Shown here: positions 4,765 through 5,980 of the stretch, one piece after another | Layout of the letters: the number at the start of each line of letters is the position of its first letter | Numbering within the stretch: the stretch's first letter is position 1 | Assembly: GCA_913046035.1 (NCBI GenBank) | Contig: CAJWSW010000001.1 | Span: 37,411-101,410, forward strand | Direction of reading: 5' to 3' | Source: an uncultured Alphaproteobacteria bacterium | Lineage (GTDB): Bacteria; Pseudomonadota; Alphaproteobacteria; MPNO01; UBA830 | Length of the DNA: 64,000 nt | Notes under the pieces: generated by a model | What the model saw: the letters and a program-made list of their open reading frames with translations, nothing else | Database searches by the model: none | What the model was told of the DNA's origin: nothing | Made by a program: the position numbers and the translations under genes

Positions 4765-4800
4765 TTAAAAAAAATAGGGCGGCTCGCGCGGCCGCCCTAT
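4765..4800 (-). terminator. Intrinsic terminator of the selenocysteine peroxiredoxin gene
   Basis: A perfect 10-bp stem, ATAGGGCGGC at 4774-4783 with GCCGCCCTAT at 4791-4800, encloses a seven-base loop. On the minus strand it is followed by a run of eight T residues (plus-strand A at 4767-4774). It lies 20 bases past the stop codon at 4821, the right place to end the peroxiredoxin transcript. Confidence 0.9.
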
Positions 4801-4820: not shown

Positions 4821-5273
4821 TCAGGAAATGGAATCCAAATCATTAATGACTTGTTCGGGGTGATCGGCGGCCTTGACCTCATCGTAGGCAAAGTGAATTT
4901 TGCCATCTGGTCCGATTAATACTGATTTCCGAGGTGCCTTCAGGCTGCCTGCTTCTGAAACACCAAATGCAATAGATGTGCTTCCATCCAAATCACTCAG
5001 CAAATCATAAGGGAAGGAGAATTTATCACGAAACGCGGCGTTATCTGCTGGGCTATCAAAAGAGATCCCCAGGATTGATGTGTTGCGGTCTTCAAAGTCT
5101 TGGATTCGATCACGGAACCCGTTGCCTTCGATCGTTCAGCCGGGTGTATCGGCTTTTGGATACCACCAAAGCAGGACGTAGCGGCCGGCAAAGTCATCTC
5201 GCGTAACTGTCTTGCCATCCTGGTTCGGGAGGCTGAAAGCCGGCGCATCGGTGCCGGTGGCGATTAGGGCCAT
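4821..5273 (-). CDS. Bcp/PrxQ-type peroxiredoxin, predicted selenoprotein (in-frame TGA = Sec46)
   Basis: Read with the TGA at 5136-5138 as selenocysteine, this frame gives a complete 150-residue thiol-peroxidase of the AhpC-TSA/Bcp (PrxQ) type, which reduces hydrogen peroxide and alkyl hydroperoxides. The N-terminus MALIATGTDAPAFSLPNQDG is typical. The active site reads YPKADTPG-U-TIEG with U at residue 46, the exact place of the peroxidatic cysteine. RDRIQDFED, ILGISFDSP, FPYDLLSD and a C-terminal KSVLIGPDGKI strand follow with no other interruption. The resolving cysteine that normally lies five residues on is Asn51. The ATG at 5273 has GGAG eight bases upstream. A SECIS-like stem-loop starts two bases after the TGA. 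A selenocysteine Prx (PrxU) is known from Eubacterium acidaminophilum and similar proteins from marine metagenomes. The alternative is a nonsense mutation, but only one stop, at that one codon, argues against decay. Confidence 0.85.
5107..5134 (-). promoter_or_regulatory. Predicted bacterial SECIS element downstream of the Sec codon
   Basis: Directly after the TGA on the minus strand, CGATC (5134-5130) pairs with GATCG (5111-5107). Inside this, an internal loop is followed by GG-AA pairing with TTCC (one C bulged) and a CGGG apical loop. The loop guanines lie 16-18 bases past the TGA. Bacterial SECIS elements lie within the reading frame just after UGA and carry guanine at the start of the apical loop, as seen here. 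SelB would bind this RNA. Confidence 0.65.
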
Positions 5274-5390: not shown

Positions 5391-5570
5391 TCAAACGAAG
5401 TCCGGTTCACTGCGTTTGCGACAGCGTAAGCAGAGGCGATTATGCCAACCTTCACTGGCAAATTTTTCGCCGCATGACATGCATTTGCGTTCTGTTGGTA
5501 CGTCGCTCGCGGCGCGATGCTCCATTACAAGTTCTTCACTTTCGAGCGAGCTTGTATCCGATTCACTCAT
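5391..5570 (-). CDS. Small CxxC...CxxC zinc-finger-like protein (59 aa)
   Basis: A 59-residue protein with an acidic, probably disordered N-terminus (MSESDTSSLESEELVMEH) and a C-terminal pair of CxxC knuckles, KCMSCG at residues 29-34 and LCLRCRKR at 46-53. The four cysteines would hold one zinc ion. The start ATG at 5570 has AGGGAG seven bases upstream and the gene has its own terminator at 5344-5369, so it is a real transcribed unit despite its size. I do not know a function. Such short ribbon proteins often bind nucleic acid or act as regulators, but this is inference. It is transcribed in the same direction as the peroxiredoxin gene, though the terminator lies between them. Confidence 0.8.
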   Translation of the reverse strand: MSESDTSSLESEELVMEHRAASDVPTERKCMSCGEKFASEGWHNRLCLRCRKRSEPDFV

Positions 5571-5980
5571 GTAATAGCTCCCTTGTCGTTATCGATCGTT
5601 ACTTGGTCGATAGTTGTCCCAACCACCATTTTGGTGGTGTCCCCACTTTTACGCTCTGAGACGATTAGCCTCTGTTTTGCCTGCCTATTGTTGCACCTTA
5701 AAAGATGTCTTGTTGCAGACCCAACCATTTACGCGGATTGCTGATTTAATTAACAAAATCACCCCCACCCGTAAGGGAAAAAAGACAATTATATTCAGCT
5801 AGAGCCGTTCCAACATCAAACTTTGGAGGTCGCCTCTATTTTTCCGTATAGTATCACGATTCCAACTGGGAGGGGTAGTGAATCTGCATGCTCAGCGGGT
5901 ATTTTCATGAGGATTTTTAGGCAACTGACGAAATTCTGACAATTTGCCGCAGTCGCTTTTCTCATGCATTAATCGCATTT
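5571..5980. other. Gene-free stretch upstream of the zinc-finger gene
   Basis: No convincing gene on either strand. It should hold the minus-strand promoter of the 59-residue gene. A small inverted repeat, ACCACC and GGTGGT around ATTTT, lies near 5622-5640. The region is AT-rich and several C- or G-rich tracts occur near 5760-5770 and 5870. Nothing else could be supported. Confidence 0.5.

Follow-up and report, generated by a model that had tools for sequence, protein, structure and literature searches.

A probable bacterial SECIS element just downstream of an in-frame UGA in an alphaproteobacterial Bcp/PrxQ-like peroxiredoxin gene

Introduction

Selenocysteine (Sec)-containing peroxiredoxins (Prx, COG1225) have been represented by 43 sequences from the Sargasso Sea (PMC1088965) and by 253 sequences in the GOS selenoproteome (PMC2398784). 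As presented in the Prx sections of those two reports, these proteins resemble the product of the gene described here in their PF00578 domain, their TxxU motif (TPGU), their largely marine bacterial origin and a bacterial SECIS element following the UGA; in these sections the Prx sequences are pooled and no Prx SECIS is set out pair by pair. For bacterial SECIS (bSECIS) elements, the limits given in a 2026 review comprise an apical loop of 3 to 9 nt, an upper stem of 4 to 16 bp, a distance of 16 to 37 nt from the UGA to the loop and a minimum free energy (MFE) of -7.5 or lower, with a G among the first two loop bases that is often followed by G or U (PMC13188914).

The element reported here lies within all of these limits, with a loop of 7 nt whose second base is G and third base U, a stem of 6 bp, and 21 nt between UGA and loop (a 15-nt linker plus the 6-nt 5' arm); the energy limit is reached in the window (-11.0 kcal/mol) and in 87 of 94 sequences compared, and missed by the other 7. 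It shares loop size, stem length, the G2-U feature, spacing, energy and position directly after the UGA with the bSECISearch consensus model, but differs in that the CGUGA part of its loop is invariant (94/94) and that a lower stem usually closes around the hairpin. In contrast to the pooled Sargasso and GOS Prx sequences, a single orthologous group (>80 genes) and a paralogous group here converge on one specific consensus hairpin whose loop, CGUGAY, is nearly invariant; Rfam returned no SECIS family match for it. We regard the element as a further, well-supported example from the TxxU peroxiredoxin selenoproteins, a family known since 2005.

Results

A peroxiredoxin gene with an in-frame UGA at the peroxidatic position

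The window, a 64,000-nt stretch of an uncultured alphaproteobacterial genome, carries the following features around the gene:

4821 to 5273, minus strand: gene for a predicted Sec-containing Bcp/PrxQ-type peroxiredoxin of 150 aa (ATG at 5273-5271, final stop TGA at 4823-4821)
5136 to 5138, minus strand: in-frame UGA, codon 46, predicted to encode selenocysteine in place of the peroxidatic Cys (TPG-U)
4774 to 4800, minus strand: intrinsic terminator (10-bp stem plus U-run), 20 nt past the full-length stop

An AhpC-TSA domain (Pfam PF00578) spans residues 7-127 and thus runs across the TGA (E = 4.7e-30; 104.5 bits against a cut-off of 26), and the PxxxTxxU motif is present as PKADTPGU, with U at the peroxidatic position. 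By sequence the protein belongs to the same family as Bcp/PrxQ (bacterioferritin comigratory proteins; PDB 5iph, 3gkk): U lines up with the TPGCT Cys in Bcp structures (TPGCTTEG), and with TGC in the Cys orthologs L129 and L133. This Cys we take, from established knowledge of the family, to be the peroxidatic one. Unlike Bcp/PrxQ, the window protein has Sec and no Cys (TPGUTIEGN), whereas many alphaproteobacterial Cys homologs read TPGCTKEAC; 46 of the 94 aligned Sec sequences are likewise Cys-free. The protein scored below the NCBIfam cut-offs for both PRK09437 (108.6 versus 140) and PrxU (NF040737; 35.4 bits versus a curated 270).

Two side observations concern the same genome. Upstream of the gene, on the minus strand at window positions 5394-5572, a short frame encodes a small, possibly zinc-binding protein with two CxxC motifs. 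Elsewhere, an ordinary Cys Bcp-type peroxiredoxin (L056, G000:C34:22615-23064) is approximately 40% identical and lacks the hairpin.

The UGA is shared by relatives and followed by sequence under selection

Among 97 genomes searched, the genome itself and 20 others of its order had an ortholog carrying a single TGA, placed at the aligned codon; those in the 20 other genomes were 57-79% identical. Among 80 loci recovered by scanning contigs of named genomes, the codon was TGA in 78 and TGC in 2, and when a class-wide sample was searched with a Cys ortholog as seed, matches at E < 1e-35 were TGA genes only. Removal of duplicates left a comparison set of 94 distinct Sec genes, nine of which belong to a paralogous group.

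Such a TGA might have arisen by sequencing error or by mutation in a pseudogene, or be the genuine stop of a truncated protein, and the genome is indeed a draft in 127 contigs. Yet one and the same codon is common to 94 distinct homologs from many assemblies, chromosome-level ones and that of Thioalkalivibrio sp. HK1 included, and purifying selection persists past the TGA, where substitutions relative to eight relatives are mostly silent (pN 0.13-0.24 versus pS 0.76-0.87). Placement of the terminator after the full-length stop further favors transcription across the UGA as far as the full-length end of the gene. We consider the probability of an error or true stop to be negligible.

The relatives are mostly metagenome-assembled, and their organism labels may be wrong. 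Sec-peroxiredoxin genes on contigs labeled Phycisphaerae, SAR324, Flavobacteriales and Gemmatimonadetes (L085, L103, L105 and L109) look alphaproteobacterial and are possibly misbinned; copies with gammaproteobacterial labels look more credible, one being on a chromosome-level assembly (L115) and another in Thioalkalivibrio sp. HK1 (L127).

Other genomes of the order also hold a second, diverged group of Sec-peroxiredoxin-like genes:

L048, 2224-2295: diverged Sec-peroxiredoxin-like group
L050, 2154-2225: diverged Sec-peroxiredoxin-like group
L053, L055 and L039: diverged Sec-peroxiredoxin-like group

Its members carry the motif PRAFGxN-U (PRAYGGG-U in L055), without the Thr of TxxU. Hairpin and loop are retained unchanged in kind in the diverged paralog, at 37-45% identity. 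Additional TGAs suspected in these paralogs were rejected as ordinary terminal stops, and L049, of the same group, has an early TAG.

A conserved hairpin replaces the stem first drawn

The conserved element comprises a core hairpin and a lower stem:

5102 to 5120, minus strand: SECIS core hairpin (5' arm GGGUUC 5120-5115, loop CGUGAUC 5114-5108, 3' arm GAAUCC 5107-5102)
5092 to 5131, minus strand: whole SECIS with lower stem (UCGAAG 5131-5126 with CUUUGA 5097-5092; MFE -11.0 kcal/mol)

The six-pair core is complete in 90 of the 94 Sec genes and has five pairs in the remaining 4, so that 99.3% of core cells are paired, and it appears in the MFE folds of 85/94. Unguided, RNAalifold returned the same core helix together with four lower-stem pairs, GAAG/CUUY, which are the inner and best-kept part of a lower stem that is less uniformly conserved than the core (86.6% of cells paired, with changes on both sides at three pairs). 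When core and lower stem were shifted by a single column, the share of paired cells fell from 92.9% to roughly 60% or below. The apical loop reads CGUGAUC, CGUGAUA, CGUGACC or CGUGACA in 94/94, its 5' part CGUGA being common to all. Of seven orthologs added later and kept outside the alignment (A1), six formed 6/6 core pairs and one formed 5/6.

A SECIS-like stem-loop had been proposed at 5107-5138 by the first-pass annotation, built from a CGATC/GATCG stem enclosing a smaller GG-AA/TTCC stem with a CGGG apical loop. The letters are present on the minus strand as described (TGA 5138-5136, CGATC 5134-5130, GATCG 5111-5107, and GG, AA and TTCC around CGGG), and the proposal was right in placing a hairpin directly 3' of the UGA and in expecting a G early in its apical loop. 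The pairs it named do not hold: the conserved 5' arm begins approximately 14 nt further downstream, the conserved loop is CGUGAUC with its G at the second position in place of CGGG, and the interval, though close to the true location, omits the 3' arm at 5107-5102.

That this first pairing is itself the SECIS draws some credit from the outer stem folding when 44 nt alone are supplied, an input that thus returns the wrong stem, at -6.8 kcal/mol (z +0.85), a value matched by 158 of 200 shuffles. CGATC and GATCG can pair because both carry the palindrome GATC, any two copies of which pair, and conservation among Sec homologs is wanting: the first word varies (CCATC, CGGTC, CAATC and others), so that the second pair (columns 6-31) forms in just 24/91 relatives, and 77.1% of outer-helix cells are paired. 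A covariation score as high was reached by 111 of 500 shuffles, the stem occurs in the MFE fold of 1/94 relatives, and the pairing as first drawn has an energy of -5.2 kcal/mol, whereas the optimal structure of the 48 nt beginning with the TGA reaches -11.0 kcal/mol. Tested on 94 sequences, the CGATC/GATCG stem with its CGGG loop performed no better than chance and was rejected; we regard it as a very improbable SECIS.

The folding energy of the conserved element in the window was by itself not significant (z -0.58), and since this stability is ordinary for the base composition, a folding program applied to the window alone could not settle the pairing.

Silent sites point to selection on the RNA

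Compensatory evidence for the core consists of a G-C to A-U double change in L083 and of one-sided changes that remain paired (G-U to A-U or G-C, and U-A to U-G). Variation in the core pairs is slight or absent, which limits covariation, so that the argument for the element rests more on the synonymous-codon null and on a peak of silent-site conservation than on double substitutions.

These two lines of evidence bear on whether the hairpin could be a by-product of protein conservation without any RNA function, a view for which the high conservation of the amino acids of the GFRDRIQ motif speaks. When synonymous codons were drawn anew according to codon usage within the family, the full core hairpin survived in a mean of 16 and a maximum of 29 sequences over 300 trials versus 90/94 observed; every other 6-bp stem stayed below 30% of the 94 sequences. 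Excess codon homozygosity in the 85 orthologs was 0.40 at codons +6 to +12 versus 0.067 +/- 0.10 elsewhere, the window starting at +6 being the highest of all 7-codon windows, and this peak is present even though synonymous differences to close relatives past the TGA are near saturation (pS 0.76-0.87). Silent positions are fixed exactly at the hairpin, with TTC (+7) in 85/85 and, despite the existence of six Arg codons, CGT (+8) in 85/85. Furthermore, Cys genes that retain FRD lose the hairpin: the two Cys orthologs found (L129 and L133) form 0/6 pairs and more distant Cys peroxiredoxins 2-3/6. An origin of the hairpin in protein conservation is accordingly most unlikely. The fixed CGT codon supplies the C-G-U with which the apical loop starts, suggesting that the sequence of the loop is recognized as well as its shape.

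The element appears specific to its gene. A covariance model built from it (R1) found no second convincing copy in the genome and only Prx-type genes in five relatives, and is thus gene-specific and not a general SECIS finder. Scanning with a 19-nt pattern with mismatches gave little beyond background apart from the gene itself, and no relative turned up among the viral contigs scanned.

Discussion

We propose, with a probability of roughly 0.93, that a bacterial SECIS element with the core GGGUUC/GAAUCC lies immediately downstream of UGA codon 46 in the mRNA of a Bcp/PrxQ-like peroxiredoxin, where Sec delivery by SelB is expected. What is observed here is the gene with its conserved UGA, a hairpin and loop kept among relatives, and the genes of the Sec machinery; SelB binding, Sec insertion and peroxidase activity are what these lead us to infer. 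The C-terminal winged-helix domain of SelB would be expected to bind the apical loop CGUGAUC, and the complex of SelB, GTP and Sec-tRNA-Sec would deliver Sec at codon 46, placing a selenolate at the peroxidatic position. With no further Cys in the window protein, reduction of the enzyme should depend on an external thiol.

The host appears equipped for this decoding. Its genome contains tRNA-Sec (76.4 bits; anticodon tca according to ARAGORN), a selB gene above the cut-off that encodes the C-terminal winged-helix domain (PF09107), and selA and selD. Among sampled genomes, selB was above the cut-off in 22/22 with a TGA gene of this group versus 14/75 without one, an association whose Fisher p of 1e-12 is descriptive only given that the sample is structured by kinship; within the order, selB is also found in most genomes without the Sec-peroxiredoxin gene. 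A genuine hairpin beside a UGA that is read other than as Sec, for instance by near-cognate readthrough to Trp or Cys, is hard to reconcile with the full set of Sec genes in the same genome or, subject to the same confounding by kinship, with the distribution of selB; UGA moreover serves as the normal stop of the very same gene. We judge such a reading extremely unlikely, and retain selenocysteine insertion at codon 46 as the preferred one.

For this widespread Sec-peroxiredoxin group, the pairing of the predicted SECIS is now fixed. The 94-sequence consensus, together with the codon-based null, can be used to find and annotate genes that standard gene callers cut at the UGA, and the invariant loop gives SelB binding assays a defined target. 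The case also illustrates that a by-eye stem built on a palindromic word can land close to the true location and still be incorrect.

This genome may encode few selenoproteins besides the Sec-peroxiredoxin. No in-frame TGA was present in the formate dehydrogenase alpha match above cut-off (G000:C8:16693-18741) or in the selD and CMD/AhpD-type matches of the genome, where the SelW family had no match, and a codon-usage scan of the window for further TGA-interrupted genes gave no other convincing candidate. From the lack of TGA in those selD, formate dehydrogenase and CMD/AhpD-type matches and the lack of SelW, it could be speculated that the Sec machinery is kept chiefly or only for the Sec-peroxiredoxin and, in some relatives, the PRAFGxN-U paralog, and that SelB of this lineage reads a sequence-specific SECIS with the invariant CGUGA loop, a combined proposal that we consider doubtful.

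The machinery genes of the host are themselves partly clustered: selA and selB adjoin on one strand (L017, 8775-12100), with tRNA-Sec just downstream of selB (G000:C17:24616-24707). The selD gene lies within an open frame of 781 aa (G000:C26:25643-26560), an arrangement that would be in keeping with the Ndh-SelD fusions known from marine data.
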